Assembly: GCA_949358305.1 (NCBI GenBank)
Contig: OX442319.1
Coordinates: 12,710,001 to 12,774,000 of the forward strand
DNA from: Strigamia acuminata
Lineage: Eukaryota > Arthropoda > Chilopoda > Geophilomorpha > Linotaeniidae
DNA length: 64,000 nucleotides
Reading direction: 5' to 3'
In this document: piece by piece, positions 2,701 to 63,348 of the stretch
How the letters are laid out: the number at the start of each line of letters is the position of its first letter
Numbering within the stretch: the first letter of the stretch is position 1
Translations under genes and position numbers: made by a program
The notes under the pieces: model-generated
Told to the model about the DNA's origin: nothing
Database searches by the model: none
Seen by the model: the letters and a program-made list of their open reading frames with translations, nothing else

Positions 2701-2713
2701 CTGAAATATTTAC

Positions 2714-2768: not shown

Positions 2769-2769
2769 A

Positions 2770-12932: not shown

Positions 12933-13016
12933 TTGTTAGCTGTTGATTGTAAGCATCCTGGATTGTTGCGTACGCATTTATTTCCAACAGAAACATTCTC
13001 GTCATTTCGTCCCAAG

Positions 13017-21007: not shown

Positions 21008-21240
21008 TCTCTCTCAGTAATCTTCGGCTTAACAGGAGATGGCGCTACTAGTCGGGTTACGTCACACTTCCGGTTCTACTAACGGGTTGCGCGGTCAGGT
21101 TCGAATGCTCTACAAGAAAAAATTTGTTAAATTTATCGTTTTTATCCCCTTTTCCAAGGATTGTTTTTATTCGAACCACTTTATAACATTTTATCTTTTT
21201 TGTAGTTATAAAGTTGTGCATGTATTCACATTTTAAAGTC

Positions 21241-25873: not shown

Positions 25874-27658
25874 AGCGCCACTAATAAAAAGAGGGCGCCA
25901 CGATCGGGATAAAACGACCTGTACACGTGGCCAATGGGTGCGCACAATAAACACGTAATGAATATGGAAAACGACGGATTCCAGTTATCATTCAATGGAA
26001 AAACTTCAGAAATCCATAAATTTACTGTTGCACAGTTAAAAGAATGGTTGAAGTCCCATGGGCAAAAGGTTTCAGGAAAAAAAGATGATCTGATAAATAG
26101 GTAAATACTTTTGTTCTCAATATTCAAATCGACCACGTTTTTCTAAACATTCTGCCACGATTTGTGACATTTTCGCCGCTTTTTAAAACACAACTAATAA
26201 TTTAATTTCTTTTTATAGAATCAAGAATTTTCAAGAAAATTCAGCAACGCCTGTTCAGGTTACAAATGAAACCTTCTCGTCATTTCTTCCCAAGATGGAG
26301 TTCATATTGGCCGCCCCGTCGCTCGAACGTGCAGCTTTGATCAAAATTGCTACGAACGTATGGAAAAGTTGGACAAATATCTCCGAGGTGATCTTCTTTC
26401 AGGAAGAAGAAGAAGCTCTTTACATGCACTTACGAGACCACTTCTGGCGGTTTATTAACAGAGGAATTGAAATAAGACTGGAGAAATTGGTTTTACCTTC
26501 AATTATGAAACCAGCGTTGTTCGAGATTTCCAAAAACGTGGGAGATGAATTACTAGAGTTTCTCACGTCAAAGAGGTTTACCGATCTTCTTGAACGCGAA
26601 CCAGGCTATAATTTAGTCCACTGTGACAGGCTCGTTAATTGCGTTAAGCACTTCGAGTGGACGCAGCACGGCAAAATCGACGAGACGAAATCGGCGAGAG
26701 CGCTGTCGTGCGCCGACAAACTACTCAGTCGAGCGGAAAGATTGCGGATAGCTTGCGCGTTTGGCATCAGAGATCGAGTGGAACATTTTTGGCGAGAATC
26801 TCCCGCTGATTTCACACTCTTAATGCTGGTGACACACGGCGCGTTTTGCGACGCGAATCGCGTCGCGAAAGTACTTGGTGCATGTACTTTTTGGTCGGCG
26901 ATTTTGATCGCAACCAATCAGATGCGACCTGACGCCATTTTGCGACGCGATTCGCGCCGCAAAACGCGCCGTGTGTCACCAGCATTAGTCCTTCTTTTGG
27001 CGACGTCATGACGTCTGGATTGGATGGTCGAGAGATAGTAAGCAAAGAGAGGAAATTTGACATGTTGCGTTGCTCATTGAAAAGCGGTAACACGAGTGCG
27101 GTGAAGTATTTGTGGTCGATTTTTCCGGACGAAGAAAGATTCGAATGTGTGGATTTCAGTTGGAAACACGCAATTTCGTTCGCTTGGGATCGCGTGCCCA
27201 ATGACGTAAATATAAGACGAACCGTTTACTTTTTGTTAAGCAAGACGAACGAGCGGAAGTTGGATACTATTTTTCCCAAGTTCGGCTCAAAGCTTTTTAA
27301 GTACTTTGCTAGGGATTGGGTGTACGTAGATTTGTTTTTAGTTGGGTTAAAGCGTGTTCTTCCGAGGCAACATGAAGTGGGATTTTTATTCTCTTGCCTG
27401 GCGAAACAGATAGAGAAAAATCCAAACGACGGCAAAAGGTTTCGGGTGTGTTTCGAGCAATTGTGGACGAGGATTTCGCCGAACTCGAGGAATTATTTCC
27501 TGCAACGTGAGGAATATGATCACATCAATTGTACTAAGTCATTGTACGAGGCTAAAGATTTCGCTAGTCTTGATTTGATGCTAAACGATTTTAGCGATGA
27601 GGATCGGACGAAATTTATGACTCGATGCGTCCCCAATTACAAAAATACCCGTACGTAA
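25874..27658 (+). pseudogene. Tandem family copy 3: SAP exon intact, body interrupted by a MITE
   Basis: Promoter remnant from 25873 (GCGCCACTAATAAAAAGAGGGCGCC, in part), SAP exon 25958-26100 (same 143-nt length and phase as copy 2), exon 2 from 26219. The body reads normally to about 26820, where a palindromic element of about 163 bp is inserted. The continuation (MTSGLDGREIVSK at 27008) is then in another frame and is open to the usual tail at 27658. The upstream frame stops at 27011 and would give a SAP protein lacking the C-terminal half. The N-terminal part of the body also differs (EEEEALYMHLRDHFW). DIRS-A lies in its promoter and DIRS-B in its 3' flank. Confidence 0.8.
26823..26985. 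mobile_element. Palindromic MITE inside family copy 3
   Basis: Starts ATGCTGGTGACACACGGCGC and ends in its reverse complement. The arms are about 47 bp, very CpG-rich (GCGACGCGAATCGCG) and nearly perfect. TA (or TTA) is duplicated at the borders relative to copies 1, 2 and 4, whose uninterrupted sequence (CTCTTTAGACC) shows the insertion point. No coding capacity. The superfamily is undecided between Tc1/mariner (TA) and PIF/Harbinger (TTA). Confidence 0.85.
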
Positions 27659-30900: not shown

Positions 30901-31207
30901 ACCACTGTTGGACTGCTTGGTCGCAGTACCAGTGTCCTTTCCGGCCCCAGAACATCTGATGTTGGTTCATCAACCAGAGGCCCAGTTTCCTCTCCAGGCC
31001 CTGCAGCTCCTTGGCTGCAAAGTCAGTGGAGTGACCTCATCGCAGGAGGCTTTTCGCCGGACGCTGCCAACTTGTACTCGGCCGGGTGGAGATCGACAAC
31101 TGTCAGAACGTACACGGCGGGAATTAAGAGGTGGACGGAATTTTCTGGTGAAGGGTCACCTTATTCCAATCCACTCCCTCCCAGTCTTGACCCAAACTAT
31201 CGTTTAA
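27923..31207 (+). CDS. DIRS-B Gag-like, reverse transcriptase, RNase H and dam-like domain polyprotein
   Basis: 1094 codons from MNSQVMITDSGFPTLND. Same domain order as DIRS-A: Gag-like region (FSDVSKLLGAETKFGDAW), RT with IDLTNAFYLLP, MPMGLASAPRTF and YLDDGIF, RNase H with TDASNLGWG, HINVKELLALW, HSDSSTVVS, ADYLSR, then the DLFATRLNHK / YAFPPFCLI tail. The strongest conservation between A and B is in RT-RNase H; the N-terminal 120 residues differ greatly. No stop or frameshift is present. Confidence 0.9.
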   Translation: MNSQVMITDSGFPTLNDHVVQNLQNEEVHEPNHEEEIVEEPPSPRRMQNRIECLADTVYELKDIMQNLLTAKTVVVSPQNTAMAGPGAVPTPKATDGTTSLLNPAIAVPLVVTSKPVDGSTAPTPATKVGFSDVSKLLGAETKFGDAWPAELEALVSKSLFETSTEFRDQLVEKLIIPENAKYLDPPKVDGTLFGEVQPWIRSRDTTSLKHQKLVLKAYIPLASAMKDVVAGNLDPNSLVIHLAEAMTLLGAMNTALTLRRRLDFADSLAPRYKQFAKGKVVFPSDLFGPDLSKQIKEFDELKKVTSKATFDKAENRKSDRDKNYRRFHPYNRYDNKYDYKRSDNSRSFDFKRQNSMNIVCSNPVTEFTNSDSLCRSGEEPAREILQEVATESPVIENENVRNKELFFNLHISHLSFKPGNLQYYLPVWRKITSNPFVLSALSGIKFDLNFDKLVHVKRTEYRMKLSETSAISQAVDKLCLQGIIKQVAHVEGEYLSPIFAVPKPDGSVRIILNLKKFNESLEYLHFKMASLKDAINLMKKGQFMFKIDLTNAFYLLPIKNEFKKYVRFLWQGQLYEYQVMPMGLASAPRTFTKVMCPVFSELRTWGICGIPYLDDGIFLCDSFCEAKNACIDVINFFQKLGLCINWEKSEFIPKTRIEFLGLTLDSRKMEVSLPERKIVKITKLASRLLQLENFSIQDLAIFIGNLVSAEPALSDGFWNIKPLESFKTGQLFLHDHNYNTLVKNYPDIKAELSRWTKLENFSPKDLNRRDVDTEVFTDASNLGWGASWNSRSANGQWTAEENDFHINVKELLALWFAWKVFAPFDGKKHVLFHSDSSTVVSVFRNQGSKVQQLHHFGRLVWEDSQRLNIDLSVIHIPGKENVMADYLSRNFLTTDGEWSLSPKMFNKLKSLFGLPEIDLFATRLNHKLPKYFSWGPDPFAYRIDAFSHSWKETFAYAFPPFCLISRILQKIRQDQATVLLVVPKWTSQAWFVPLLDCLVAVPVSFPAPEHLMLVHQPEAQFPLQALQLLGCKVSGVTSSQEAFRRTLPTCTRPGGDRQLSERTRRELRGGRNFLVKGHLIPIHSLPVLTQTIV

Positions 31208-32010
31208 CGCTCGTCAATACCGCAAATTTCATCGCCTCAAGATTCAATGAAGGCTTGTCACACTCCTCCATTTCGGGAAGTTTAGCGGCCATCACCGCCG
31301 CAGGCTTCATTGACCCGTCAATTAGAGCTGATGATCGTATCGCCCGAATTCTAAAAGGAGTTAATAATTTAAGGCCGAACTTACCACGTTATGTGGCCAC
31401 TTGGGACGTGGGCCTAGCTCTGAACGCCCTGCGAAAACTCTGGCCGCATGATGATCTCGATTGGAGACAACTCCAAGAAAAACTGCTCATGCTGCTGGCT
31501 TTAACAACTGCTGCCAGGGTCAGCTCGCTGCAAAGTTTTAAAATTTCGGAGATGACAGTCTCAACTGACGCGGTCATTTTCAACCCGAAAACTTTACACA
31601 AGCATTCTCGTGTTGGACACCATACTGTATTTCGAGTGGCCCCTTATTTGCAAGAACGGGCCATCTGCCCTTTCAAGGCCCTGATGGATTTTTTGGCCAA
31701 AACAAATCCGTTACGCAAGGACGATGGTTTGTTCTTAAAATTACAACCACCCCATGCCGCACCTACCAAAGATACTGTGCGACGATGGATTAAGGATTTT
31801 TTAAAAAAGATCGGCGTCGGTCAAGAGTTTGGTGCTCATTCGACGCGAGCTGCGGCCACCAGCGCAGCCGCCAGTGTTATTCCGGTACAACAAATATTAG
31901 GTGTTGCCGGTTGGACCTCCGAACAAACATTCGCGAGGTTCTACAACAAAACAATTGTCAACCACAATGCTTTTCAGGAATCAGTCCTAAACAGACCAAT
32001 TCCAAAATAA
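30877..32010 (+). CDS. DIRS-B tyrosine recombinase
   Basis: 377 codons beginning MDLTSVVCTTVG, overlapping the last 331 bases of the RT frame. Arm-type DNA-binding helices include GWRSTTVRTYTAGIKRW. Catalytic set: TTAARVSSLQSF, GAHSTRAAATSAA, VAGWTSEQTFARFYNK with the nucleophilic tyrosine. The conserved internal ATG in A and B supports this as the true start. Confidence 0.9.
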   Translation: MDLTSVVCTTVGLLGRSTSVLSGPRTSDVGSSTRGPVSSPGPAAPWLQSQWSDLIAGGFSPDAANLYSAGWRSTTVRTYTAGIKRWTEFSGEGSPYSNPLPPSLDPNYRLTLVNTANFIASRFNEGLSHSSISGSLAAITAAGFIDPSIRADDRIARILKGVNNLRPNLPRYVATWDVGLALNALRKLWPHDDLDWRQLQEKLLMLLALTTAARVSSLQSFKISEMTVSTDAVIFNPKTLHKHSRVGHHTVFRVAPYLQERAICPFKALMDFLAKTNPLRKDDGLFLKLQPPHAAPTKDTVRRWIKDFLKKIGVGQEFGAHSTRAAATSAAASVIPVQQILGVAGWTSEQTFARFYNKTIVNHNAFQESVLNRPIPK

Positions 32011-32967: not shown

Positions 32968-34156
32968 ATGGAGTTCACATTGGCCGCCCCGTCGCTCGAG
33001 CGTGCCGCCTCGATCAAAATTGCTACGAACGTATGGAAATGTTGGACAAATATCTCCGAGGTGATCTGCTCTAAAAATTCCAAATGTTTTTATATGCACT
33101 TCAGGCTTTATATTAATAACTACGGAATTGAAATAAAGCTGGAGAAATTGGTGTTACCTCCAATTGTGAAACTTGAGTTGGTTGACATTTCCAAAAACGT
33201 GAGAGACGAAATACTAGAGTTCCTCACGTCAGAAAGGTTTACCAATCTTCTTGAACCCGCACCAGGCTACGATTTTATTGGCTGTAGCAAGCTCGTTGGC
33301 TGCGTTAAACTCATCGAGTGGACGCAGCACGGCAAAATCGAGGAGACGAAATCGGCGAGAGCGCTATCGTGCGCCGACAAACTACTCAGTCGAGCGGAAA
33401 GATTGCGAATAGCTTGCGCGTTTGGCCTCAGAGATCAAGTGGAACATTTTTGGAGAGAATCTCCGGCTGATTTCATCCTCTTTAGACCTCCTTTTGGCGA
33501 CGTCATGACGTCTGGATTGGATGGTCGAGAGATAGTAAGCAAAGAGAGGAAATTTGACATGTTGCGTTGCTCATTGGAAAGCGATAACACGAGTGCGATG
33601 AAGTATTTGTGGTCGATTTTTACGGATGAAGAAAGAATCGAAGGCTTGGATTTCAGTTGGCAACACGCAATTTCACTCGCTTGGAATCCCCAGGCCGATG
33701 ACGTAAATATAAGACGAACCGTTTACTTTTTGTTAAGCAAGACGAACGAGTGGAAGTTGGATACTATTTTTCCGAAGTTCGGCTCAAAGCTTTTACAGTA
33801 CTTTGCTAAGGATTGGGTGTACGTAGATTTGTTTTTAGCTGGGTTAAAGCGTGTTCTTCCGAAAGGAATATGAAGTGGGATGTTTATTCGCTTGCCTGGC
33901 GAAACAGATAAAGGAAAATCCAAACGACGGCAAAAGGTTTCGGGTGTGTTTCGTGCAATTGTGGACGAGGATTTCGCCTAATTCGAGGAATTATTTCCTG
34001 CATTGTGGTGGAAAGTATCACGTCAGGTGTACTAAGTCATTGTACGCGGCTAAAGATTTCGCTAGTCTTGATTTAATGCTAAACGATTTCGATGAAGAGG
34101 ATCGGACGGAATTTATGAGGCGATGCGTCCCAAATTACAAAAAAACCCGTACGTAA
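32968..34156 (+). pseudogene. Tandem family copy 4, frameshifted, no SAP exon
   Basis: Body opens MEFTLAAPSLERAAS at 32968 and is in frame to 33873. At about 33861 an extra A (CCGAAAGGAATATG against CTGAAGGAATATG in copy 1) shifts the frame, and the remaining C-terminal part continues to 34156 in the next frame. One base separates it from an intact gene, so a very recent lesion or a sequence error is possible. Its N-terminal third differs most from copies 1 and 2 (KLELVDISKNVRDEILEF). Confidence 0.75.
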
Positions 34157-38605: not shown

Positions 38606-39857
38606 TTTTACGGATGAAGAAAGAATCGAAGGCTTGGATTTCAGTTGGAAACACGCAATTACGCTTGCTTGGATTTACCAGGCCGATCTCGTTAATATAA
38701 GACAAACTGTTTTCTTTTTAAAGGCTTTTATTTAACTTGACTTGAACGTTTGTGTGTGTGGTTCAACTTCCGGTTTGTCTAAATTTGGGTGTTTTTTCCA
38801 AAAATCAATTCTGCATAACAAAAAATTAAATTTTGGCCGACGTCAAGCCCTAGAACAGGTCATTCCACACATTATAATAAAATAAAAGAAAAAAAAAGAC
38901 TCATTTTTAAGCGCTGTGGACTGGAAGTACGAATGCTGAAACCTCTGATTTACGGCAAACTGTAAGCAAACCGGAGTGCCACCTGGCGGAACCCGTGTTT
39001 TTTAATGGATGCCAAAATGTTCGCCCGATACGAATTTTGATGTTTTCGGCACTAAAAAAGGATTTAAAAATCCTGAAACCACGCTCATTTGATTGGAAAT
39101 TGCATTCTGCACAAGCTTGTATTTTTTTTTTTCGATTCGGTAAAAAAAAATACGTCTTTTTACGACCGTAGCCGGCGACCACATGGACAATTTAGTACGA
39201 AATTTGAATTTGACCATAAAAACAAAAAATATGAAAAATGAACGGTTTAAAAAAATTAAAAATATGTTTCCTGTGCAGAATTTGCCGCTCTTTCAAATGG
39301 TGCTGATAACTTTTTGATCAGAGCTACATTTTTTTTTATTTGCTAAAAAACGATTTGTCATTTGGATTCAAATTTCTCAGGGATACAGCATAAAAGCCTT
39401 TTTCAAAAACGTAATTTTTTTGGTTTACTTGTTGTTAACCAAGACGAACGAGCAGGAGTTGGATACTATTTTTACTAAGTTCGGCTCAAAGCTTTTAAAG
39501 TACTTTGTTAAGGATTGGGTGTACGTAGATTTCTTTTTACTTGCGTTAAAGCGTGTTCTTCCGAAGCAAAAAGAATTGGGATTTTTATTCATTTGCCTGG
39601 CGAATCAGATAGAGAAAAATCCCAACGACGGCAAAAGGTTTCGGGTGTGTTTCGAGCAATTGTGGACGAAGATTTCGCCGAACTCGAGGGATTATTTCCT
39701 GCAACATAATGAATATGATCACGTCAATTGTACTAAGTCATTGTACAAGGCTAAAGATTTCGCTAGTCTTGATTTGATGTTAAACCATTTCGTTGAGGAG
39801 GATCGGACGAAATTTATGAGGCGATGCGTCCCAAATTACAAAAAAAACCGTACGTAA
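38601..39857 (+). pseudogene. Tandem family copy 5, 5'-truncated and split by an insertion
   Basis: 38601-38715 matches the middle of the body (FTDEERIEGLDFSWKHAI). The match is interrupted by about 700 bp (38716-39418) and resumes at 39419 with LLTKTNEQELDTIFTKFG through the normal tail to 39857. The N-terminal half and SAP exon are gone. The second part alone is open for 145 codons from an internal ATG, but it is not a credible gene. Confidence 0.8.
38716..39418. mobile_element. Insertion of about 700 bp with short inverted ends in copy 5
   Basis: Left edge TTTTTAAAGGCTTTTATTT and right edge ATAAAAGCCTTTTTCAAAAA are inverted relatives. A diverged, inverted, partly deleted copy lies at 46260-46650 (shared GCCAAAATGTTCGCCCGATA and AAAGGCTTTTATTTAACTTGA). 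No transposase was found, so it is probably a non-autonomous DNA transposon. Confidence 0.55.
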
Positions 39858-49066: not shown

Positions 49067-49584
49067 TTTTTTTCCGAAAATTGGAATCAATCAAACGCGT
49101 GTGGACACTCTTGGGTGAAGTGGGTGTTGTTATTTCGTTGGTAATTACTTCACATTGATTTCGTTTGAGAAGCCATGCGGATTTTTGTTAAATTTTGCCG
49201 CTAAATGTTTCTGCTGTGCCGAGGTAACAACGGTCAAATTGTTGGTCGTGACAATGGCGCTGTAGATAATGGGTGACGTCGTTGGCATGGTTGTTGACTT
49301 TTGCTACTTGATCTTTTGACTAAAAAGAGATTTATTAGGCAGGCTAAAAATGCATTTCTGCAGCTAAAAATGCAATTTTTGCCACAACAAGCACTTATGT
49401 TGCATGAAGGGTTTTTTTCTCTCATAAAAATGCATTTTATTTCATTTTTCTTTCATAAAATGCATTTTATTTCATTTTTCTCTCATAAAAATGCATTTTA
49501 TATCATTTTTCTCCCATAAGAATGCATTTTATTTCATTTTTCTCTCATAAAATGCATTTTATTTCACATTTATGAGAAGCAATG
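49067..49584. other. MYND gene upstream region and ATGCATTTTATTTC array
   Basis: 49067-49330 is the 5' flank of the MYND gene. 49340-49570 is a tandem array of about 28-34 bp (AAAATGCATTTTATTTCATTTTTCTCTCAT, in parts) related to the one in TUBD1 intron 1. Nothing coding. Confidence 0.6.
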
Positions 49585-50261: not shown

Positions 50262-50963
50262 TGGCGAGCCTGACAGGATTCTCGCTTATTTAGGCTGGAA
50301 ACGCGCAAGAAAGTTAAGTTTTCGTTTAAATTATTAATCATTTTCATTATTTTTTCATCATGTCGAATGAGTTGGGAAACGGTGAGGAAAACCCCACTGT
50401 ACGAGACCCCTTTGATTTGGACGAGCTGGCTTCGTCTCTCGACTGGCAGCGTTATGAGCGTTTAAGGCGAGCACGAGCGGAGCAAAGTGAGTTATTGATA
50501 ACCATTGCGAATTCAATGCCGCAAACTTTTCGCGACAACATGTCGGCTCCAATATCTGGCGTAAACATTTCTGCGCCAACGACAGTTGCCACGTCAACAC
50601 CAGCGTATCAGCTCGTGCCTCCAGCTTTCTTCACTCCTGGCACGTCAGGAATATCAATGAATCCGACGATTTTACATTCCGAAGCTTTATTGATGTGTGA
50701 TATTCGTAATCAGTTTTTCGTTCAGGCACAGGGACTACTCAAAGAAATGCGAAGCATTTACCAACAAGGCACCAGCCCTCCACATCCAACGACACCCCCG
50801 TCAGAGGATGGTGGGTCCTCTCATGGATCCATAAGGGTAAAAGGCAATTCGGCACCATTAGGAAATGAACTTTCCACGGAAATTCCGCACCTAGAAGGAG
50901 CAAGCCACCAACAACAATTTGCGCCCACCACCATAAATGCGCAACCGACGTCTACAACAACGA

Positions 50964-51447
50964 TGTTGGGTCAAAGCAGTTTTTCATTTCACGTATTAAC
51001 GGCGCACCTTTTCTGGCTAAGTGCGTTAAAGGCGAAATTCGGGTCGCATTGTTTACTGTACTGGAATCGAGAGCCAACTGCATCTGACTGTCGCAATGCG
51101 TGTTAAATACTACAGTTGGCTCATGTTTATCAATGGATTTCGAGTTGTCGTCTGCTATGATTTAGTTTATCTATTATTTCCCCCAGTGCATTATCCAGTG
51201 TTAATGCTGGCTTTGAGTTATCTTTACTTTGGTTGTGTAAAGAACAAATCAACCTTTCCATCAGGATGATTTGTTCTACTTTTAGATCGAGGGCAAATAG
51301 CCTCGACACCTGTACATATTCACTTGCTCACCTGTTCTTGCCTGAATAAAGATGGCCGACGCGTTTGTGCGGTTTTCAGGCACAAAATGACTTTCGTTTC
51401 GTCTCCAGTTTATTTCCCGGCGTTGACAACTTCACTTAGCATCGTCA
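50964..51447 (+). repeat. 5' LTR of nested Copia-type element
   Basis: 484 bp, starts TGTTGGGTC, ends ATCGTCA. AATAAA lies at 51345. Its copy at 55944-56427 appears identical by eye. Preceded by AACGA (50959-50963). Confidence 0.95.
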
Positions 51448-51448
51448 G

Positions 51449-51464
51449 TGGTAGCAGAGGGTGG
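51449..51464 (+). promoter_or_regulatory. Primer-binding site of nested element
   Basis: TGGTAGCAGAGGGTGG starts one base after the LTR and matches the complement of the 3' end (CCATCCTCTGCTACCA) of animal initiator tRNA-Met, with one substitution. Confidence 0.85.
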
Positions 51465-52550: not shown

Positions 52551-55500
52551 ATGGCAGACGATTCGGATGGCGATGTTTATAAATCGTTTGGACAATCGAT
52601 TAAGAAACTGAATGGATTGAACTATGAAACGTGGAGTGTACAAATTGCCCTCATTCTAAAGCAGCAAGGAGTTTGGGCTCACGTGATGGGCACTGAGCCG
52701 TGCCTGCCTTCAAGCGCAACGGCGCGTGAAAAACGTGAATACGAGACGAGAGAGGCAAAAGCACATTCTACGCTTTGCCTGAGCTGCAATGAAGCCCAGC
52801 AGTCAGTCGCTGTCGCCAAAGACACCGCGAGCGAGGTGTGGGAAGCGCTAAAAGAGGCTTATCGACCCACGACCCGGGCTAGGAAAGCCAGACTGCGTCG
52901 GGAGTTTCTCCAGCTCAAACTGAATGCTAACGAAGAGATGGTCGTATTTACATCTCGCGTCGATCGAAAGGCGCTCGAGTTGAAAGAAGTGCAGATTACA
53001 CTCACTGATGAGGAGATAGCATTTCAATATCTCGATTTTTTGGATCCCCAATATGAGAACTTAAAACAGGGACTGTATCATTGGGATGATACGGATTTTA
53101 CCGTGGTCAAAGTGCGTGAACGTTTACTCGCCGAGTATAACCGCATGCACGCGTATGATTCAACGTTTGGGGCCAGCGGACAACCGGATACCAGTGCTTT
53201 TACGGCAAAACAACCCTGGAAATTTAACAAACCGGGTTCTACAACAGCACAACAAGGTGTGTGTTATAATTGCGGCGGTTCGGGTCATTTCTCGAGAGAA
53301 TGCCCCTCGCAAAAGAAAACGGGACAGAATCCTCAGTCGTCCAACGCTGGACCAACGTCTCAATTTAGAGGACAGCCACGTGGGAAAAATCGTGGAAAAG
53401 GAGGACGTGGTGGGCGCAAAGCCAACTTAGTCGACAATTGGATTGACGACCCGGACTCACTCTACATGGAAGTGGAGGAGCCACCGCCTCCTGTATCGTC
53501 ATTTTTGTCAAATGGACCAGTAGACACCGCTTGGTACGTGGATACCGGTGCTACTGACCATTTTGCCTTTTGCAAAGAGTGGTTTGCAAATTTTAAGCCT
53601 CTCAATTACACAGTGCAGTTAGGGGAAGGGACCTCTAAAATAGAAGGGATTGGATCTGTGGAGTTAATTTCCACATATGGCAACAGGAGTAGAGTTGTTA
53701 CTTTGAACAACGTCTACTATGCTCCGAATTTTCGGAAGAATCTTATCTCTCTCGGGCGCACTGATGAGGCTGGCTTACGCACTTACGTTGCAGACGGCAA
53801 AATGACTTTATTTCGGAAAAAGATTGAAGACCCATCGATAACAGCTGTACGACTCAGCAATCGCTTGTATAAAGTTAACGGACATGTGTCTGTCACCTCT
53901 GTAAATGCAACTGCCATCCCTGCGCAGAAGGAGGCAGTTGGCATAAATAATTGTGTAAAACAAACTGGATTAACCATGCCTAGAGTTAAGTGTGAACTAA
54001 CCACTTCTAATGTGCAATCGAATGGGAAAACGATTGTTGCAACAAATGGCGCAGTGAATAATGCGAGCAATGCGAACAATGCGCGCACGTTTAGTAATGT
54101 GGTACAGGGGGTTAATCAGACGGGAGTGAAACAGACTAAACCTACAGTGATGGGACCGATTAAAACGGCTTTAACGGCTAATAATAATACTAATGGGAAG
54201 AGATTAGACAATGATAAAGCGATACCGATGGATTTTTGGCATGGCAGAATGGGCCACCTAAACTCAAAGGGCATTGTGATGATGCAAAAATCCACAGAAA
54301 TTTTTGGCGTTAAATTAAGCAATGAATTGGCTTCTCCTTGTGATGCGTGCAATAGAGCCAAGCGGGTTAGAGCAACCTTTTCTCCAATAGCTGAGATCAA
54401 GTCCAAGGGAATCTTGGACTTAATTCATATGGATCTTTGGGGGGCCGCATCATGCAAATCCTTAGGGGGGGCTGAGTATTATCTCATTATTGTGGACGAC
54501 CACTCTAGATATATGTGGATCAGTTTTTTAAAGCACAAAAGTGAAACTTTTGCCCATTTTAAAGTATGGCAAGCGGAAGTCGAGCGTGCGACTTCTAGAA
54601 AGGTTAAAACGATCCGCACAGATAGGGGGGGTGAGTTTGTGTCCAAAGAATGGGATAATTATACTAAATCTTGCGGAATCAAGTGTGAACGGACCAACGC
54701 CTACAGCCCCGAGATGAATTCGGTCGCGGAGCGATCGAATCGCACCATCATAGAGGGGGTGCGAGCTATGGAATTGGAGAATGGGTTTCCACACTTCTTA
54801 TGGGCTGAGTTGGCAAATACCATTGTGTATTTGAAGAATAGATACCCTCACTCGAGTTTACAGGGACGGACTCCCTATAATGTATTTTTCGGACGTCGTA
54901 TGTCGGTGCGACATTTGCGCTGTATTGGGTCGAAAGTGTATGTGCACATCCCAGCGCAAACTCGGAAAAGCAAACTAGACAGTAGAGCTTGGTCGGGGGC
55001 CCTAATTGGTTATGCAATAACCACAGCTGGATACAGGATTTGGGACCCACACAAGAACAAAGTCTTTGCATCAAAACATGTAAAAATCGATGAGAATCAA
55101 TATTGGTACGAGGGAACACAAGCAGTTCCAAAAGGATTGGGAAGTGTTAAGGCTAAGAGGGGGTTTGGATCTGATGAGTACATTCATCTAATTAGCGAAT
55201 CCGAAGCAGAAGAGGAGGAAGTTCCTCAAAGTCCCCCTGTGTCGACAACGCAACAAACTGTTAGACTTCCCACGCCACAGATTATTCCTGCAACGACGAC
55301 GGAGCCAGAGGATGAGGCATCTATGTCTCAACCTGCTCCATTACCCCAATTAGACCCTAATCTACCAGAGGATGTTGCTCACACTGCAGGAGATGCTACT
55401 CCAAGTGAAGGCAGTGACGATGATGCCAGATATGAAGAGGCAGTGGCACAGTCTCCTAATGTAAGGGGCAGGCATACTGGGGCAGTTGGGGGAGTTGAAT

Positions 55501-55889
55501 TACAACAAATTGATATCACGAAATGGAAACGAGTAGAATACATTAGGAAATCCGGAGCACAAGCCGGACATGTTTTCATTCACTACATTGCACCAACGGG
55601 CACTCGATTTAGAAGTCGTATCGATGTAGTGAGGTGGTGTGAGGAGGAGGACTACGAATATGATGCAGGGTTATTCGACTTTAAAGCGAAACCGCGGGCA
55701 CAAGTTCCTCTACCTTTTGCGAGTTTTTGTTACGTAAAACAAGGTACCTTAGGAGATACCATGACTGGTCTCAGCAATGAGGATTGGGGCAAGGAAATGG
55801 TTAAGGGGATTTACATCTTCGATCGGAATAAAGTCCGCGCTGAACATCGCAGACATTATGACCAAGTGGGTTTCCCGCCCACGTCTTGA
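52551..55889 (+). CDS. Copia-type Gag-protease-integrase polyprotein ending in an MBD domain
   Basis: 1112 codons from MADDSDGDVYKSF (an in-frame ATG 36 bases upstream is less likely). Domains: Copia Gag (about 10-225: LNGLNYETWSVQIALIL, VWEALKEAY), zinc knuckle CYNCGGSGHFSREC (237), aspartic protease WYVDTGATDHF (about 330), pre-integrase zinc part HGRMGHLNSKG ... CDACNRAKR (about 562-605), integrase catalytic core with HMDLWG (625), TDRGGEF (689) and SVAERSNRT (724), a D-D-35-E set. After the integrase tail (about 855) an acidic, proline-rich linker replaces the expected RT. Residues about 988-1045 are a methyl-CpG-binding-domain fold: WKRVEYIRKSG, AGHVFIHYIAPTGTRFRS, LFDFKAKPR. About 65 residues follow (GLSNEDWGKEMVKGIY). 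No RT YVDD and no RNase H motifs anywhere. Confidence 0.93.
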   Translation: MADDSDGDVYKSFGQSIKKLNGLNYETWSVQIALILKQQGVWAHVMGTEPCLPSSATAREKREYETREAKAHSTLCLSCNEAQQSVAVAKDTASEVWEALKEAYRPTTRARKARLRREFLQLKLNANEEMVVFTSRVDRKALELKEVQITLTDEEIAFQYLDFLDPQYENLKQGLYHWDDTDFTVVKVRERLLAEYNRMHAYDSTFGASGQPDTSAFTAKQPWKFNKPGSTTAQQGVCYNCGGSGHFSRECPSQKKTGQNPQSSNAGPTSQFRGQPRGKNRGKGGRGGRKANLVDNWIDDPDSLYMEVEEPPPPVSSFLSNGPVDTAWYVDTGATDHFAFCKEWFANFKPLNYTVQLGEGTSKIEGIGSVELISTYGNRSRVVTLNNVYYAPNFRKNLISLGRTDEAGLRTYVADGKMTLFRKKIEDPSITAVRLSNRLYKVNGHVSVTSVNATAIPAQKEAVGINNCVKQTGLTMPRVKCELTTSNVQSNGKTIVATNGAVNNASNANNARTFSNVVQGVNQTGVKQTKPTVMGPIKTALTANNNTNGKRLDNDKAIPMDFWHGRMGHLNSKGIVMMQKSTEIFGVKLSNELASPCDACNRAKRVRATFSPIAEIKSKGILDLIHMDLWGAASCKSLGGAEYYLIIVDDHSRYMWISFLKHKSETFAHFKVWQAEVERATSRKVKTIRTDRGGEFVSKEWDNYTKSCGIKCERTNAYSPEMNSVAERSNRTIIEGVRAMELENGFPHFLWAELANTIVYLKNRYPHSSLQGRTPYNVFFGRRMSVRHLRCIGSKVYVHIPAQTRKSKLDSRAWSGALIGYAITTAGYRIWDPHKNKVFASKHVKIDENQYWYEGTQAVPKGLGSVKAKRGFGSDEYIHLISESEAEEEEVPQSPPVSTTQQTVRLPTPQIIPATTTEPEDEASMSQPAPLPQLDPNLPEDVAHTAGDATPSEGSDDDARYEEAVAQSPNVRGRHTGAVGGVELQQIDITKWKRVEYIRKSGAQAGHVFIHYIAPTGTRFRSRIDVVRWCEEEDYEYDAGLFDFKAKPRAQVPLPFASFCYVKQGTLGDTMTGLSNEDWGKEMVKGIYIFDRNKVRAEHRRHYDQVGFPPTS

Positions 55890-55943
55890 CGCATTATGCG
55901 ATCACATTTTTGATTGAAATGGATAACTGTTTAGAGGGGGTTC

Positions 55944-56427
55944 TGTTGGGTCAAAGCAGTTTTTCATTTCACGTATTAACGGCGCACCTTTTCTGGCTAA
56001 GTGCGTTAAAGGCGAAATTCGGGTCGCATTGTTTACTGTACTGGAATCGAGAGCCAACTGCATCTGACTGTCGCAATGCGTGTTAAATACTACAGTTGGC
56101 TCATGTTTATCAATGGATTTCGAGTTGTCGTCTGCTATGATTTAGTTTATCTATTATTTCCCCCAGTGCATTATCCAGTGTTAATGCTGGCTTTGAGTTA
56201 TCTTTACTTTGGTTGTGTAAAGAACAAATCAACCTTTCCATCAGGATGATTTGTTCTACTTTTAGATCGAGGGCAAATAGCCTCGACACCTGTACATATT
56301 CACTTGCTCACCTGTTCTTGCCTGAATAAAGATGGCCGACGCGTTTGTGCGGTTTTCAGGCACAAAATGACTTTCGTTTCGTCTCCAGTTTATTTCCCGG
56401 CGTTGACAACTTCACTTAGCATCGTCA
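55944..56427 (+). repeat. 3' LTR of nested Copia-type element
   Basis: 484 bp, no difference from the 5' LTR seen on side-by-side reading. Followed by AACGA, the second target copy. The preceding AGAGGGGG is the plus-strand primer tract. Confidence 0.95.
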
Positions 56428-57636
56428 AACGACACCACCGGTAATGACGCATGCCACTACTTTTACTCAATGTCCGTCTGTGGCATCACAAATTATGGAT
56501 TCAACAAAAGCCAATCAGCAGGTGATGAATTCTTTATTATGTGCCAAAATTAACAACACTGGGCACCCATCCGGAGTAAGGGCCCAATTGTCTCTACCAT
56601 CAATTCGAGTAAGACGAGAGGACTCTTCCCGAGGATATAATAATTATAAGGAAAAACTCCCACATTTCGACCCTGAGAAGGCCACACTTGACTCTGTTAA
56701 TTTGTTTCTTGCGCATTTATTTGCGCATATGTATTCCACACGCATGCCTGAGGAGGAGTATTTAAAAGTGAATATAATTCAAGCAACCCGCAACAAGGCG
56801 CAACGTTGGTGGCTCGCATTAAAACCAAAACCCAAAACATGGATTGAGTTCGAGGCATTGTTTCGTAGGGCATTTTCCATGAATTCAGCGGCAGCCAATG
56901 TGAAAATTGCAAATCGAAAGCAACGCAGTGGAGAGTCCACCATGACTTTCCTCAGCGAAATAATATATTATTTAGAAATTGCAGGCTACACAGACCCTGG
57001 ATTACAATGGGAGAAGGCACAGAACATGCTGTTATCCGACGTCGTCCAACTTTTGAGAACAATGCACGTCAAAACAATCGACGAAGCAATCCAAGTGGGA
57101 AACGACGTGGACAATCGATTACTACTCGACTCTCATCGCAAAACTGAGTATAAACATTTGGGTCTCGTTGATCAATTTGCACCTCTTTCAGAGGTAAACC
57201 CTTCATCTCCCACCGTGTTGAAATCCGTGGATAAGTCTAGAGGTGAAGCCGAATCTAAAACCTCCACGTCCAATGACGCCAAACGTTTTACGCGCTATCG
57301 TAAACAACAGCTTATGTTAGAACTAGCTGCGTTGGAAGCCCGACCCGAGCAACCTTCGCCGCCACAGGAACCAAGTTCAAGTAGCAGCAGCGAGTCGGAA
57401 CCGGAAGTGGAAACCAAAAAGAGTTCTGTCGCCGGAGCCGCGCAAAAGGTGAATATTTCAGTAAATTCAACCACAATTGCGCTTCCTGCAGATCTCCCAA
57501 AGGACCATGTCTGTTCTACCTCTGTTGTTACATTTGCGCCATCACCAAAACCTCCCACAAGCGTCAAGTTTCCCGAAAAAGGTGCGGCTTGGCGCAAAAC
57601 GAGAAAGGATTGGTGGTACATGATTGATAACACTAC

Positions 57637-60600
57637 TTGGCGCCCCATTTGTCCTGTGTGCTACAAAGTTTTCGAGAGGCAGGAAAACTCCGACGGCCTG
57701 AAGTTCCCACGACCGGCGGAGCCAGGCCGCAAGTAAATCAACCGGTCTCCACAAGCGTAAAACGTGTGGAATCAACAAGACGTGCTCCACCCGACATCAT
57801 CCTCGACGAGAACATTTCCGAGAGGATTATTCCAACAACAACTACTTCTTCTACCACTCCTAGTGAGTCTAAACCAGGAATTAGTGTTGTATCGTCCACA
57901 CCTCCATCTTCATCACCGATAGTGACGAATCAACGGAAAACTTCAGTTTTGCAACCTGTGGCTTTCCAACTAGCATCTGGACCTGTTTCAAAGTCGACAG
58001 CCTTGCAAGCTGCGACTGCACAGAAACAAATCACCAGGAATGTGAGTAAAAACTTTAAACTACCCATTATTAAGACTACTTCCAGTGTCAATTCAGCGGA
58101 AGCGCCCAAGGAAGTGATCGCTCCAATGAAGGTATCTTTTGTCATGTTGACATCGGAAGAGCTTAAAGAATCTCAAGAGCCAATTATTGAGATAACACGC
58201 GCCGATAGATTGCGCAGAGAAGCTCCATGCGTAAAAATATCTTGGGCAAATGTATCATTCACCGCGCTTTTAGATTCAGGTGCTCAAACTTGTATCATGA
58301 GCGAGGAATTATTTCAACAACTTCACGAAAAAATGGGACTCGAATTTATTAATTTACATGAACAGGTACAGGTCGCATCCGGACATGTAGTTACTGCTTC
58401 AAAATCAGTGACGCTTGCGTTGCGAGCGCCATTAGGAGTGGTGAGATTTGTGTGTTTAGTGTTGCCTGATGCCAAAAATGACTTGATCCTCGGACGAGAC
58501 TTTAACCAAGCCGTCGGAGCAACCATCGATCATGGGAGGAGCCAGTGGAGCTTGGCTGGCTCAGATGAAATTCGTAAATTCGTGACCTATGAAGACGCCA
58601 AAAAATCTGAGTCCATTCTCGTGTTCCCCATGGCACCAGAAGGATTGGATAAATTAACAACTCCACTAACTAAAATAAGTGAGATTGTTCCAAATAAAAT
58701 ACTTAAAAAGCCTGCGCCACCCAGTGACATTAACTGTGTGCTGCTGTTACACCAACCATTGAAAAATGAGGTTTTTGAGTATCCAAACGACGACTCACAA
58801 AGACAAGTAAAGACAATTAGGCATCGCAGTCGAATAACGTGGTCGAACATCTGGTCACCAAAACGAAAGGAAACTTCGAGGACTTCGAGTAAAGTGAAAA
58901 AAACAATCTCTCGTAAGTTAACGATAAGTCAATTTCGTCGATTGCGCCGCCTTCGTCATAAATTGAATGTTATTCGTCCCATCGCCAAACAATTGATTGC
59001 GCAACGAGCCAAAGACATTAACGACAAAAAGAAGTTAATTAACGACTCCAGAACAACTGCGCAACCTACTAATGGTGAGAACGACTCAAATTCAAATGTT
59101 TACAACATCAACTTTTTGCAGTACCAACCTAGTGAGAATCCGACCGATCTCGATTGGATTTATCACCAGTTATGGAACCATCTGACTGTTACGCAAATCA
59201 AACTACTAATTGAAACTTTACAGCCAATTTCACAGATTTTCCGAGAGGAAGTCGGTTTATGTAATAATACGGAATATGAAGTTAATCTAAAACCGGATTT
59301 TCGTCCGATTCATGTTCCCGTACGACCCGTAAACCCTGCGAAAAAGGCAATTATTGACAAGTACATCGACAAGAAACTTCAACAAGGGATCATTCGCCGT
59401 TCACAAAGTGATTGCGCCGTCGCCCCAGTGGTCGTGCCCAAGAAGACCGGGGAATGGAGGACAGCAATGGACTTCAGACCCATTAATGCGCAAACAATTC
59501 CGGATGTGTATCCACTTCCGGACATAGACAATATATTTGCGTATTTAGGTGGTGCACATTGGTTCTCGATAATCGACGGGCGCGAGGCCTTTCACCAAAT
59601 TGGAGTGCGCAAGGGAGATGAGCGATTCTTGGCCTTCATAACACATAGAGGACTGTTCGAATACGTTCGTATGCCCTTTGGCCCCATCAACGGCCCTGCA
59701 ACACTCCAAAGAGCGATGAATAAGACCTTGGCCAAATATTTATATAAATTCGTATTTGTATACATTGATGATGTTATTATTTTTAGCAAAACATTTGAGG
59801 AGCACGTTCAACATCTGCGCCTCGTCTTGGAAGAATTATTTAATGCAGGTTTCACCATGAACGCCAACAAGACCGAGCTCTGTCAACAGCGCCTCGAAGT
59901 TTTGGGCCACATCGTGGAATCCGGTCAAATTTCTCCAAATCCAAAAAAAGTGTCAGCTATCCAAAACTATCCTGCGCCAACAAATTTGCGCGAGTTACAA
60001 CGTTTCAAAGGTATGGTGGGTTATTATCAATCTTTTATTGCGAACTTTTCCAAGACAAGTGAGGTATTCCGACCACTACTCAAAAAAGATGCTGTTTGGC
60101 ATTGGAACGAAGCGCAACAAGAAGCTTTTGATTATCTCAAAGATCAAATAGCGACTCCAACGCTAAAAAGACGTTTTCCCAGCTGGAAGAAGCCATTCAT
60201 CCTCCAAACAGATGCAAGCTACTCCGGTTTGGGATCGGCTTTAATGCAACTAAATGACGCAGGAGAAAGAATTCCAATAGCTTTCGCTTCTCGTGCGCTT
60301 AACAGTGCTGAAAAAAACTATAATGTGACTGAAATTGAATGCCTAGCAGCCGTGTGGGCGGTGAAACGTTTCCGCGCTTATTTAGAAATGATGCCATTTT
60401 ATTTGGAGAGTGATCATCGTTCTTTAAAGTGGTTATTTCAACAAAGAGAGCCAACTGGCCGACTTGCTCGTTGGGTACTCTCATTAAGCGAGTACAAATT
60501 CACTTTCCTGCACTGCTCGGGATGCAAGAATCGAGTGGCGGACGCTTTAAGCAGAGCACCAGTCGATCCACCCGAACATGACGAGGAGGATGACAGTCCA

Positions 60601-63348
60601 CTCGTCGATGAAGCCTGCTACACAGCATATTTTGATGACTGTAACCAATGGCCAGCATTGTCCATCATTACTGAGTTGCCAAAAGACATTAATAGACAAT
60701 TTAAGAAAATGTTCAAAGATAAATTCATTAAATCAACTTTAATTTCAGCCATTTCTCCAACTAAACCAAAGAAAGGAAAAAGGAAATCCCTCATTCCTCG
60801 TCGAATTACAACGATCACGACACCATCAACTGCGCCAACTCAAATTGCGCAACCTACTTCAACAGCTGCGTCAACTCCAGTTGCGCAACCAACTCAACAA
60901 ACAACACCAGTAACATCACCCTTAATTTCACCTAATTCTTCATCAGTTCGTGTTTCAGTGCCACTTCGAGCGCGCAGACAACATTCGTTGATTCCGATAT
61001 TAACGAAGAAAAGAGGACGACCACGTAAAATTATGATAATTCCAGTGCTCTCCCCTCGCGCTAAACGTGCTATTGCGACAAGGACTCGAGCTAGATTAAG
61101 AGATCCCACTTTAGTTCCGAAAATATCTCCGAAATTACCAAGATATGGAGCTAATATAAAGAAATGGACATTTCCTAAGCTGCTGAAAGCACAGAGAGTC
61201 GGAAAAGGCAAAAGGACGCCGAAAGCACCTCGTTTAGTAGTTTCACCTATTCCAACAGCCCTTCCTAGTCCTATTCCTGTTCCCATTCCTACACCAATTC
61301 CTATTCCCCCAGTACCAACTCTCCCTTTTCCACCACCGAAAGGACCAACCAGAAAGTCATCTGGAATCCCTTCTCATATTTTACCCCCGCGTAAAAAACC
61401 CATTATTACACCAAAATCAACTCCTGTTTCCAAAATACCCACTCCACCAATTCCTAGACCTAAAGGACGACCCCGAAAGTCAGCTGGAATTCCTTCTCAT
61501 ATTTTGCCACCAAGACCAAAACCTACACCAAAATCAACTCCTGTCCAAATCCCAAATTTTCCGACACCTTCTCCCACACAATCCATTCCAATATCGCAAT
61601 CTCCTATTCCTCCAACCTCTCCTGCGTCTTCGCCGTCAACGATAACTGATACAGCACCGACTGTGCCACCAGTGTTTGACCCCGGACCAGGACCTTCTGG
61701 ACTCCAACTCCCCGATGGATACCCTTCTGAGCCGGACTCCGACACGTCGTCATCCGACACAGACAGTTTTAGCCCGATTCGGGATTTTCCTTCACCGGTG
61801 GAGTATCCAGTGCCAAGAGGTGGAACGCCTCGAACTCCGACGAGACTGCGCCCGAGATCTGAACGAACATTTACAGAATCAGACAGAAGGCTCACTGAAG
61901 CGGAGCAACAGGCTGAATTGGAACACGAACCACCTATTGAACATCCACCATTTGAAATGTTACCGGATGCCGCTGAAATAATAGCCGCACAGAGACAAGA
62001 TCCGTGGTCGCGTGAGTTGATATACTACTTAACTGCTCAAATGCTGCCGGTCGATCCAGTCGAAGCTGCGCAAGTTCAAAAAAGCGCGCAAAATTTTGGT
62101 ATGCATAAAGATATGTTGTGTCGTTTTCCACCCGTTCATATTAATGAAATTCGAAAAAGGCGTCAAATTTATCTCCCCTTGGAATTGCGCGAGCGATATT
62201 TCCGCGCAATGCATTACCCACCGGTAGTGGGACACATGGGAAGAGAAAAAACCCTCCATCGTTTAAAGACGCGTGTGTATTGGCCCAACATGAGAGAAGA
62301 TGTCCAAACATGGATCCAGGTTTGCGAGGCTTGTCAACGCGCGAAACCATTGAATCGCCTGCCTTATGGCAAAATGATAATGTCAAGAGCGCGCCACTTG
62401 TTTTCCGCAATATATATTGATTACTATGGCAAAAAACCACGTTCAGTGGGCGGCCACTGCTACGCCTTTGTAATGGTCGACTCAGCGAGTCGTTGGTTAG
62501 ACGTAAGACTAACAGAAGATTCGACTATCGCAACTTCAGTTGCGCAAATTCAGAAATTTACGAAACGCTGGGGTTTCCCCAAAATCATTATCAGCGACAA
62601 TGCCCCCGCGTTCAGGTCACCTGAGTTTCGCAGCCAAATCCAGCAATTAGGCGCAGTAAATCGCTACACTGCAGCGTACCACCCCCAAGGCAACATTGCC
62701 GAACGCCTGAACCAATCCTTAAAGAACTGCATTTTAGCTTACATAGACGACCACGACAGGTGGGATGTAAATATCGGCTATTTTGTTTTGGCAATTAATT
62801 CGGCGTACCAAATTTCGTTAAAGTATTCTCCATTTAAGTTAGTTACAGGCCAAGAAGCCAGATTCCCTGGTGATATTGATAGTGACACAGATGACGGGGA
62901 ACCTTTACCACCTTCTGAGGCTGAAAACCTTCATGAGCAAATGCGCACCATGCGAGAAAGGGCGATGAACAATTTGCGCGAATCCCAGATCCGCCACAAA
63001 AAATGGTTCGATTTAAAACGTCGCGCTCATGACTTTCGCCCTGGCGACTGGGTGACGTTGCGCAATCGGCAACCCTCTTCCGCCGACAGACAGTTTGCAG
63101 CAGGCTTACACCAGCGAACTGAGGGAGTCTATATCATTCACAAATTGGTGGGTCCCAACACTGTCATCTTAATGGACCAAAATGGCAGAAAAACACAACC
63201 ATACAACGTTGTTGAACTTCGCCATTGGCATTTTGCGCAAATTAATTTTCTAACCCTGAAAGATGTCGAAATCATCGACAAACATGTCGAAAATTATACT
63301 GCTAACACACTAGATATTTTCACTGCTTATTTTCTTTCTTTCAAATAA
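57637..63348 (+). CDS. Gypsy Pol: protease, RT, RNase H, AT-hook linker, integrase
   Basis: About 1900 codons, in the -1 frame relative to gag with a 100-base overlap (57637-57736), so expression probably needs a -1 frameshift; the ATG at 57637 may not be used. Domains: aspartic protease LLDSGAQTC (about 212), RT with IIDGREAFHQI, MPFGPINGPATLQ and YIDDVIIF (about 708), RNase H with TDASYSGLG (858), ESDHRSLKWLF and VADALSRA, then a 460-residue proline-rich linker, zinc HHCC (MGREKTLHRL ... CEACQRAK), integrase core IDYYGK (1594), SDNAP (1653), NIAERLN (1688) as D-D-35-E, and a C-terminal FRPGDWVTLR domain. The frame has no stop. The linker is unusual: it carries GRPRK AT-hook motifs and repeated IPSHILPPR units. 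Confidence 0.93.
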   Translation: MAPHLSCVLQSFREAGKLRRPEVPTTGGARPQVNQPVSTSVKRVESTRRAPPDIILDENISERIIPTTTTSSTTPSESKPGISVVSSTPPSSSPIVTNQRKTSVLQPVAFQLASGPVSKSTALQAATAQKQITRNVSKNFKLPIIKTTSSVNSAEAPKEVIAPMKVSFVMLTSEELKESQEPIIEITRADRLRREAPCVKISWANVSFTALLDSGAQTCIMSEELFQQLHEKMGLEFINLHEQVQVASGHVVTASKSVTLALRAPLGVVRFVCLVLPDAKNDLILGRDFNQAVGATIDHGRSQWSLAGSDEIRKFVTYEDAKKSESILVFPMAPEGLDKLTTPLTKISEIVPNKILKKPAPPSDINCVLLLHQPLKNEVFEYPNDDSQRQVKTIRHRSRITWSNIWSPKRKETSRTSSKVKKTISRKLTISQFRRLRRLRHKLNVIRPIAKQLIAQRAKDINDKKKLINDSRTTAQPTNGENDSNSNVYNINFLQYQPSENPTDLDWIYHQLWNHLTVTQIKLLIETLQPISQIFREEVGLCNNTEYEVNLKPDFRPIHVPVRPVNPAKKAIIDKYIDKKLQQGIIRRSQSDCAVAPVVVPKKTGEWRTAMDFRPINAQTIPDVYPLPDIDNIFAYLGGAHWFSIIDGREAFHQIGVRKGDERFLAFITHRGLFEYVRMPFGPINGPATLQRAMNKTLAKYLYKFVFVYIDDVIIFSKTFEEHVQHLRLVLEELFNAGFTMNANKTELCQQRLEVLGHIVESGQISPNPKKVSAIQNYPAPTNLRELQRFKGMVGYYQSFIANFSKTSEVFRPLLKKDAVWHWNEAQQEAFDYLKDQIATPTLKRRFPSWKKPFILQTDASYSGLGSALMQLNDAGERIPIAFASRALNSAEKNYNVTEIECLAAVWAVKRFRAYLEMMPFYLESDHRSLKWLFQQREPTGRLARWVLSLSEYKFTFLHCSGCKNRVADALSRAPVDPPEHDEEDDSPLVDEACYTAYFDDCNQWPALSIITELPKDINRQFKKMFKDKFIKSTLISAISPTKPKKGKRKSLIPRRITTITTPSTAPTQIAQPTSTAASTPVAQPTQQTTPVTSPLISPNSSSVRVSVPLRARRQHSLIPILTKKRGRPRKIMIIPVLSPRAKRAIATRTRARLRDPTLVPKISPKLPRYGANIKKWTFPKLLKAQRVGKGKRTPKAPRLVVSPIPTALPSPIPVPIPTPIPIPPVPTLPFPPPKGPTRKSSGIPSHILPPRKKPIITPKSTPVSKIPTPPIPRPKGRPRKSAGIPSHILPPRPKPTPKSTPVQIPNFPTPSPTQSIPISQSPIPPTSPASSPSTITDTAPTVPPVFDPGPGPSGLQLPDGYPSEPDSDTSSSDTDSFSPIRDFPSPVEYPVPRGGTPRTPTRLRPRSERTFTESDRRLTEAEQQAELEHEPPIEHPPFEMLPDAAEIIAAQRQDPWSRELIYYLTAQMLPVDPVEAAQVQKSAQNFGMHKDMLCRFPPVHINEIRKRRQIYLPLELRERYFRAMHYPPVVGHMGREKTLHRLKTRVYWPNMREDVQTWIQVCEACQRAKPLNRLPYGKMIMSRARHLFSAIYIDYYGKKPRSVGGHCYAFVMVDSASRWLDVRLTEDSTIATSVAQIQKFTKRWGFPKIIISDNAPAFRSPEFRSQIQQLGAVNRYTAAYHPQGNIAERLNQSLKNCILAYIDDHDRWDVNIGYFVLAINSAYQISLKYSPFKLVTGQEARFPGDIDSDTDDGEPLPPSEAENLHEQMRTMRERAMNNLRESQIRHKKWFDLKRRAHDFRPGDWVTLRNRQPSSADRQFAAGLHQRTEGVYIIHKLVGPNTVILMDQNGRKTQPYNVVELRHWHFAQINFLTLKDVEIIDKHVENYTANTLDIFTAYFLSFK

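Follow-up and report, generated by a model that had tools for sequence, protein, structure and literature searches.

Within a 64,000-nucleotide stretch of the Strigamia acuminata genome (hereafter the window; contig OX442319.1, positions 12,710,001 to 12,774,000) lies a long terminal repeat (LTR) retrotransposon of the Copia type whose single open reading frame ends in a methyl-CpG-binding domain (MBD), raising the question of how such a domain came to stand beside a retrotransposon integrase and what it does there. The element is complete, young and non-autonomous. Elements of this kind (MBD-Copia) are present in many copies and form one clade among the Copia elements sampled; the copy in the window lacks reverse transcriptase (RT), has recombined with RT-bearing relatives and carries an MBD under purifying selection. 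We think it rather probable that this non-autonomous MBD-Copia moves with RT supplied in trans, and that the MBD at the end of its integrase tethers it to CpG-containing chromatin in regions rich in transposable elements (TEs).

The frame (52551-55889, plus strand, as are all element features below) encodes 1112 residues plus stop and runs from an ATG to a stop codon with zero internal stops. Pfam matches along the translation comprise the Copia Gag (Retrotran_gag_2, residues 34-200, 89.7 bits; 52650-53150), a CCHC zinc knuckle (zf-CCHC, residues 237-253; 53259-53309), Pol_BBD in the protease (PR) region (residues 328-408; 53532-53774), where a DTGATDH motif is seen by eye, the integrase (IN) core rve (residues 624-720; 54420-54710) and the SH3-like integrase domain (SH3_retrovirus, residues 780-852; 54888-55106), together with a gag_pre-integrs match (residues 555-604; 54213-54362) that at 27.9 bits falls just below the Pfam cut-off of 28.4. 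Within the integrase, 35 residues, counted by eye, separate the second D from the E. An acidic, proline-rich linker (residues 870-985; 55158-55505), which by its ratio of nonsynonymous to synonymous substitution (dN/dS) evolves faster than its neighbours, leads to the MBD (residues 989-1048; 55515-55694), identified by Pfam, a PDB search, alignment, AlphaFold and Foldseek. Alignments show that what follows (55710-55886) is what remains of the segment that precedes RT in RT-bearing relatives, RT and RNase H (RH) themselves being absent. Neither RVT_2 nor an RNase H family is among the 11 Pfam families matched in the frame, and since no RT or RH is encoded, movement must be in trans. In these respects (an uninterrupted Copia Gag, CCHC, protease and D-D-35-E integrase frame, no RT or RNase H, hence movement in trans) the first-pass annotation of this DNA was correct.

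The frame is enclosed by two 484-bp LTRs bounded by TG..CA (50964-51447 and 55944-56427), flanked by copies of the target-site duplication AACGA (50959-50963 and 56428-56432). A putative primer-binding site (51448-51464), which we take to resemble the complement of the 3' end of initiator tRNA-Met, adjoins the 5' LTR, and the polypurine tract-like sequence AGAGGGGGTTC (55933-55943) precedes the 3' LTR. With Gag, protease, integrase, the TG..CA LTR pair, a polypurine tract and a short duplication, the element has the features of Ty1/Copia retrotransposons. The two LTRs are 100% identical, indicating a recent insertion.

Judged from profile matches and a predicted model, the C-terminal domain is a genuine MBD-fold domain. 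PF01429 matches residues 992-1047 at 36.7 bits (E 3.2e-9; cut-off 21), confirming the proposed in-frame fusion to Gag-PR-integrase, and a PDB sequence search returns MBD1, MBD2, MBD3 and MeCP2 domains as top matches (MBD1 6d1t, E 3.7e-7). An AlphaFold model of the tail, computed from an alignment of 16 rows, is confident in the MBD core only: blocks of tail residues 21-80 reach predicted local distance difference test scores (pLDDT) of 82-90, with a whole-tail mean of 61.6 and a predicted template-modelling score of 0.43. When this model is compared with the PDB by Foldseek, MBD/TAM-type domains occupy rows 1-42 among the best 50 rows listed, in agreement with the MBD-type fold first suggested; the E-values are modest (best 5.6e-4; TM 0.35-0.76 by target length), and the first non-MBD fold among these 50 rows appears at row 43 with E 1.3.

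The last 122 residues of the window frame served as query for relatives in six frames of the same genome (237.5 Mb). Scores were obtained for the best 150 of 1,327 candidates, so that the counts are lower bounds; all 150 match at E<=0.001, 18 with at least 89% identity and 22 with at least 66% (the window type), the remaining matches being 42-64% identical to the window tail. Open frames of at least 1,450 residues hold 106 of the 150. Five long frames (loci L009, L012, L013, L016 and L017) and one RT-less frame (L018) were scanned with Pfam. The MBD exceeds its cut-off in all six (28.6-41.0 bits), seven of seven counting the window element, and always follows the integrase SH3 domain (7/7). 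In the five RVT_2-bearing relatives it lies between SH3 and RVT_2, giving the domain order Gag-PR-IN-MBD-RT; Gag is fully matched in L009, L016 and L017 and partly in L012 and L013. The window frame does stop soon after its MBD, without RT, and the first-pass annotation had concluded that the element captured an MBD in place of RT/RNase H. That the RT-bearing relatives already carry an MBD between IN and RT (5/5) refutes this account, and the residues following the window MBD can be aligned with the stretch leading into RT in relatives; we regard replacement as very improbable. By sequence comparison the window type is instead a derived RT-less form within the MBD-Copia clade. Equally hard to credit is a functionless MBD match, arisen by chance or left as a relic, or an assembly chimera at its junction. 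No point in support of this was found; the at least 150 places matching the tail, 18 of them at least 89% identical, together with purifying selection refute it, and the MBD fold and the completeness of the element, target duplication included, also speak against it.

The MBD is absent from the other Copia elements sampled. Eight non-MBD families were drawn from the large Copia population of this genome (2,633 RVT_2 candidates), and none of the eight has an MBD at E<=1 in the stretch that begins at the protease region and ends where RT starts. A maximum-likelihood integrase tree (296 columns) splits 10 MBD families from the 8 non-MBD families with an ultrafast bootstrap of 100, showing that MBD-Copia form one clade among the Copia sampled; a close MBD-free relative may exist outside the 8-family sample. 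Outside this genome, a scan of IMG/VR found no relatives. Of the 19 stretches in which LTR pairs were sought, seven gave full pairs, 99.2-100% identical (window, L012, L013, L014, L016, L019 and L021), and three gave partial pairs (L017, 99.3% over the available part; L018, 97.2%, and L025, 98.0%, over short parts). L023 showed low-identity repeats only, and no pair was found within the bases examined for L009, L010, L011, L015, L020, L022, L024 and L026. The near-identity of the LTR pairs indicates that the clade was recently active.

The relation of the RT-less form to its RT-bearing relatives is seen most closely in L012, which carries both RVT_2 and MBD. Its LTRs are 99.6% identical to those of the window element and 100% identical to each other, and a target duplication is present. 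In RT and LTRs L012 answers to the autonomous relative that the first-pass annotation proposed to look for; its Gag is matched only in part. L012 matches bases 1-1580 (98.4%), 2297-4766 (96.9%) and 4876-5464 (99.5%) of the window element, its RT segment falling in the last gap. Identity is 97-100% in every compared block from 55270 to 55573 and 47-83% per block from about 55574 to about 55840, a span that covers the MBD's second half and the tail; misaligned blocks beyond about 55840 are lower still, and a local alignment returns to 99.4% from 55839. This sharp shift inside the MBD (approximate breakpoint 55574, placed by block identity to L012) indicates that RT-less and RT-bearing elements have recombined, the simplest route being template switching after co-packaging. 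L018, which is 82% identical to the window element and likewise RT-less, aligns across the same 3' joint (55756-55999, 78%), so the RT-less state probably precedes the split between the two. A separate difference affects the 5' part of Gag, where L012, L013 and L021 offer no nucleotide counterpart to the bases of the window element from about 1581-1593 to 2296-2298, which suggests that within the clade Gag has been swapped or shortened.

Codon alignments of 13 frames (16 pairs) indicate that the MBD is under purifying selection, less strict than that on RT. In the seven pairs with amino-acid changes and computable dS, MBD dN/dS is 0.05-0.22 (window-L021, 0.05; window-L012, 0.20, affected by the breakpoint; L012-L018, 0.05, with dS near saturation; L009-L015, 0.07; L011-L016, 0.17; L016-L019, 0.08; L014-L017, 0.22); the MBD has no amino-acid change in window-L022 and L012-L013, and dS is saturated in the seven other pairs. 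Integrase dN/dS is 0.02-0.08 in nine pairs (0.08 for window-L018) and that of RT 0.02-0.14 in five RT-bearing pairs. The pre-MBD linker gives 0.22-0.60 in computable pairs, except in window-L012, where it has zero amino-acid change. Across five deep pairs (L009-L017, L016-L017, L012-L009, L012-L017 and L014-L017) dN is 0.31-0.38 for the MBD, 0.27-0.34 for RT, 0.25-0.35 for integrase and 0.79-1.20 for the linker; the corresponding values are 0.24, 0.13, 0.23 and 0.42 for L009-L016, and 0.23, 0.16, 0.18 and 0.55 for L012-L014. The remnant after the MBD, with dN/dS of 0.77 (window-L018), 1.01 (window-L022) and 0.16 (window-L021), looks relaxed in two RT-less pairs and not in the third.

What the domain may read is suggested by its contact residues. 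In characterised MBDs two arginines recognise CpG and a tyrosine confers methyl selectivity, human MBD3 having phenylalanine at that position, according to PMC5240623. The window frame conserves R999, R1021 and S1022, and all 16 aligned tails, among them five close window-type copies, share the two arginines and the serine. In the PDB-search alignment H1011 stands opposite the MBD1 tyrosine, which we take to be Tyr34, and F1009 opposite an aspartate, presumably Asp32. The tyrosine position is occupied by His in the window type, L012, L020, L014 and L018, by Val or Ile in the other families aligned, and by Phe in an MBD2/3-like gene of the host that also has MBD_C. With the methyl-sensing tyrosine gone, binding to CpG or DNA is expected with weak or no methyl preference, and tethering to CpG chromatin with weak methyl preference is likelier, from these residues, than strict methyl reading. 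The methyl-CpG reading originally attributed to the domain was therefore overstated: the two CpG-contacting arginines are kept, the methyl-selectivity tyrosine is not.

The host has four DNMT1-like loci and one DNMT2-like locus, recognised by eye from motifs. The four DNMT1-like loci (among L027-L036) lie at C1:30.37, C1:11.84, C3:32.74 and C3:35.92 Mb (contigs are numbered with C), and the parts of the genome examined show no CpG depletion. Observed/expected CpG ratios are 1.12 for the window, 0.89-1.36 for loci L001-L026 and 1.25-1.61 for the methyltransferase and MBD2/3 loci, values with which modest methylation of repeats may be compatible. These data bear on the possibility that the MBD counters host silencing, either by competing for element DNA with the MBD2/3-like protein of the host or by sequestering its partners. 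The presence of that gene and of the DNMT1-like loci, the resemblance of the element MBDs to MBD1/MBD2-type domains, and the lower ratios at element loci, which leave room for repeat methylation, fit such a role; however, the undepleted CpG of the window makes heavy germline CpG methylation unlikely, the roughly 40 residues after the MBD are accounted for as a pre-RT remnant, and a decoy fused to integrase would be oddly placed. We consider an anti-silencing role quite improbable. Substitutions among ten copies were also considered as a methylation (deamination) signature, with C>T at 0.239 per site at CpG versus 0.115 otherwise; this was rejected, as C>other rises more (0.073 versus 0.026).

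Whether the MBD guides integration can be approached through the positions of the copies. Each set consisted of the best 150 of the candidates, 1,327 for the MBD tail, 2,633 for RVT_2 and 4,264 for RVT_1, the counts again being lower bounds; the RVT_2 set was treated as non-MBD, all its rows scoring at least 233 bits against 169-177 in five MBD-Copia, and 8 of 8 sampled families being without MBD. TE-rich zones making up 14.5% of contigs C1, C3, C6 and C8 hold 55 of 79 MBD copies compared with 11 of 107 best-scoring RVT_2 copies (Fisher p 2e-17). When 27 of 209 megabase bins are defined by Gypsy elements alone (contigs C1, C3, C5, C6 and C8-C13, with C4 and small contigs left out), they contain 59 of 133 MBD copies and 10 of 138 RVT_2 copies. 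The MBD copies and Gypsy also differ in distribution on C1 (Kolmogorov-Smirnov p 0.008). Among 16 contig ends read, one of them N, TTAGG telomere repeats occur at two, the left end of C1 (L052) and the right end of C8 (L061), and the C1 and C8 zones sit at the opposite ends, which is consistent with a pericentromeric location. Together with the MBD2/3-like gene carrying MBD_C, these repeats would by themselves suggest an animal host, perhaps an arthropod; an SL1 RNA search, meant as a test for nematodes, gave no match and is uninformative either way.

Several observations weigh against site-directed tethering. Gypsy crowds the same zones (46 of 70), with neither a chromodomain nor an MBD in the four Gypsy C-terminal tails sampled with Pfam; the zones were drawn after the MBD positions were known, and the Gypsy-defined bins, though fairer, equally fit targeting and retention. 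At C8:12.76 Mb, the copy in the window falls outside the zone drawn on that contig. Of 16 target sequences only 5 contain CpG (p 0.15 relative to an assumed rate of 18%), a set from which L008 was excluded for an incomplete LTR match, in which L010 and L020 were counted once as one element, and to which L023 contributed its left flank only. In each of the seven deep pairs compared, MBD dN somewhat exceeds that of RT and integrase, the window-L012 MBD values combine two sources because of the breakpoint, and the purifying selection could date from RT-bearing phases and have been passed on by recombination. Finally, with Gag only partial in L012 and L013, an RT donor of the L012 type with the window's LTRs is only putatively autonomous.

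Two candidate lines of evidence were given up on these grounds: clustering as proof of targeting was rejected after the Gypsy control, retention in heterochromatin fitting equally well, and a CpG preference at the insertion site was dropped, the first four sites (window, L012, L013 and L021) all having CpG but the larger set failing to confirm it. The MBD might instead be a general nucleic-acid-binding module, acting in the particle or holding nuclear cDNA, with no part in site choice and with clustering as passive accumulation in heterochromatin. The Gypsy distribution, the lost tyrosine and target sequences without clear CpG preference all agree with this, but known targeting modules likewise sit at the integrase end, few of the best-scoring non-MBD Copia lie in the TE-rich zones, and the CpG-contacting arginines are invariant (16/16); on balance we find it unlikely, though to be taken seriously.

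Under the tethering model that we prefer, the RT-less RNA would be packaged and reverse-transcribed by RT supplied in trans from an RT-bearing MBD-Copia, and the window-type element would still contribute Gag, protease and integrase-MBD. Integrase, once processed, would end in the MBD, which could hold the pre-integration complex to CpG-containing chromatin where TEs are dense, much as the chromodomain may do in chromoviruses and as the targeting domain of Ty5 does. Since the domain follows SH3 and precedes RT, it may be a candidate reader at the integrase C-terminus, depending on the protease cut. A more specific version, in which Copia has a CpG-reading integrase whose tyrosine-less MBD tethers it to CpG heterochromatin and a long-lived RT-less sister lineage borrows RT while giving Gag and integrase-MBD, has in our estimation slightly less than an even chance of being correct.

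Reader domains on integrases are, to our knowledge, mainly chromodomains. Ty1 and Ty5 are both Copia-type elements, and the code RLG in the names of wheat elements denotes Gypsy. MBD-Copia resemble Ty1/Copia in Gag, CCHC, PR, IN with SH3, LTRs, polypurine tract and 5-bp duplication, and in RT where relatives bear it; they differ in having the MBD between IN and RT, and the window copy in lacking RT/RH. The chromoviruses of Ty3/Gypsy share the principle of a chromatin reader at the integrase end, as a chromodomain at the integrase C-terminus (PMC3605345), but belong to another superfamily and use another reader fold; Copia IN precedes RT, so that the MBD sits inside Pol. The targeting determinant of Ty1 integrase is in its C-terminal part (PMC9673352), and Ty5 reaches silent chromatin via Sir4 (PMC4700185). 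In both, as proposed here, the integrase bears the determinant, but short stretches there bind host proteins (Sir4, AC40), whereas MBD-Copia has a folded DNA-reader domain. By analogy the window element may work like a chromovirus or Ty5, yet it is a Copia, not a chromovirus. The RLG_Cereba/RLG_Quinta pair of wheat centromeres likewise joins an autonomous element whose integrase has a CR domain to a non-autonomous partner sharing LTR, PBS and PPT motifs (PMC11302176); there the non-autonomous partner is said to give Gag, whereas the RT-less MBD-Copia partner still encodes integrase with the reader. Other retroelements have captured epigenetic domains, a DNMT (PMC5890265) and an AlkB m6A demethylase in an orchid Gypsy (PMC9289625); these are enzymes, whereas the MBD is a reader in the integrase region.

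A fusion of this type was initially judged non-standard, and in agreement none of the titles or abstract openings listed by searches of open-licence PMC papers, which take in neither Repbase reports nor subscription journals, describes an LTR retrotransposon with an MBD. None is described in the passages of PMC12730594 and PMC8616336 consulted, and the words MBD and methyl-CpG are absent from the main text of PMC5890265 and PMC9289625. PMC9289625, a screen of 121 angiosperm genomes, reports no domain gain in plant Copia and notes env-like genes in some Copia lineages. An MBD beside a Copia integrase, selected across diverged families, offers a way to test whether sites can be chosen by direct CpG reading, and a natural comparison lies in the sharply differing distributions that MBD and non-MBD Copia have within one genome. 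The RT-less lineage with its conserved integrase bears on how non-autonomous LTR elements persist. If the tethering model is true, MBD-Copia would be a Copia counterpart of chromoviruses in which direct DNA reading replaces histone reading.

Elsewhere in the window, a long Gypsy pol frame (57637-63348, plus strand) with protease, RT, RNase H and integrase adjoins the MBD-Copia element. In each of two DIRS/Ngaro-like units (21214-25343 and 27923-32007, plus) an RVT_1 frame and a Phage_integrase (tyrosine recombinase) frame overlap; the second unit also has weak Dam-like and PCIF1 matches below cut-offs. Interleaved with the DIRS-like units a repeated gene family is seen by eye (12933-14201, 18395-19585, 26295-27658, 32968-33873 and 39420-39857, plus), the one member scanned (18395-19582) having no Pfam match. 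A short AT-rich tandem repeat of roughly 31-bp units occupies 49414-49571.

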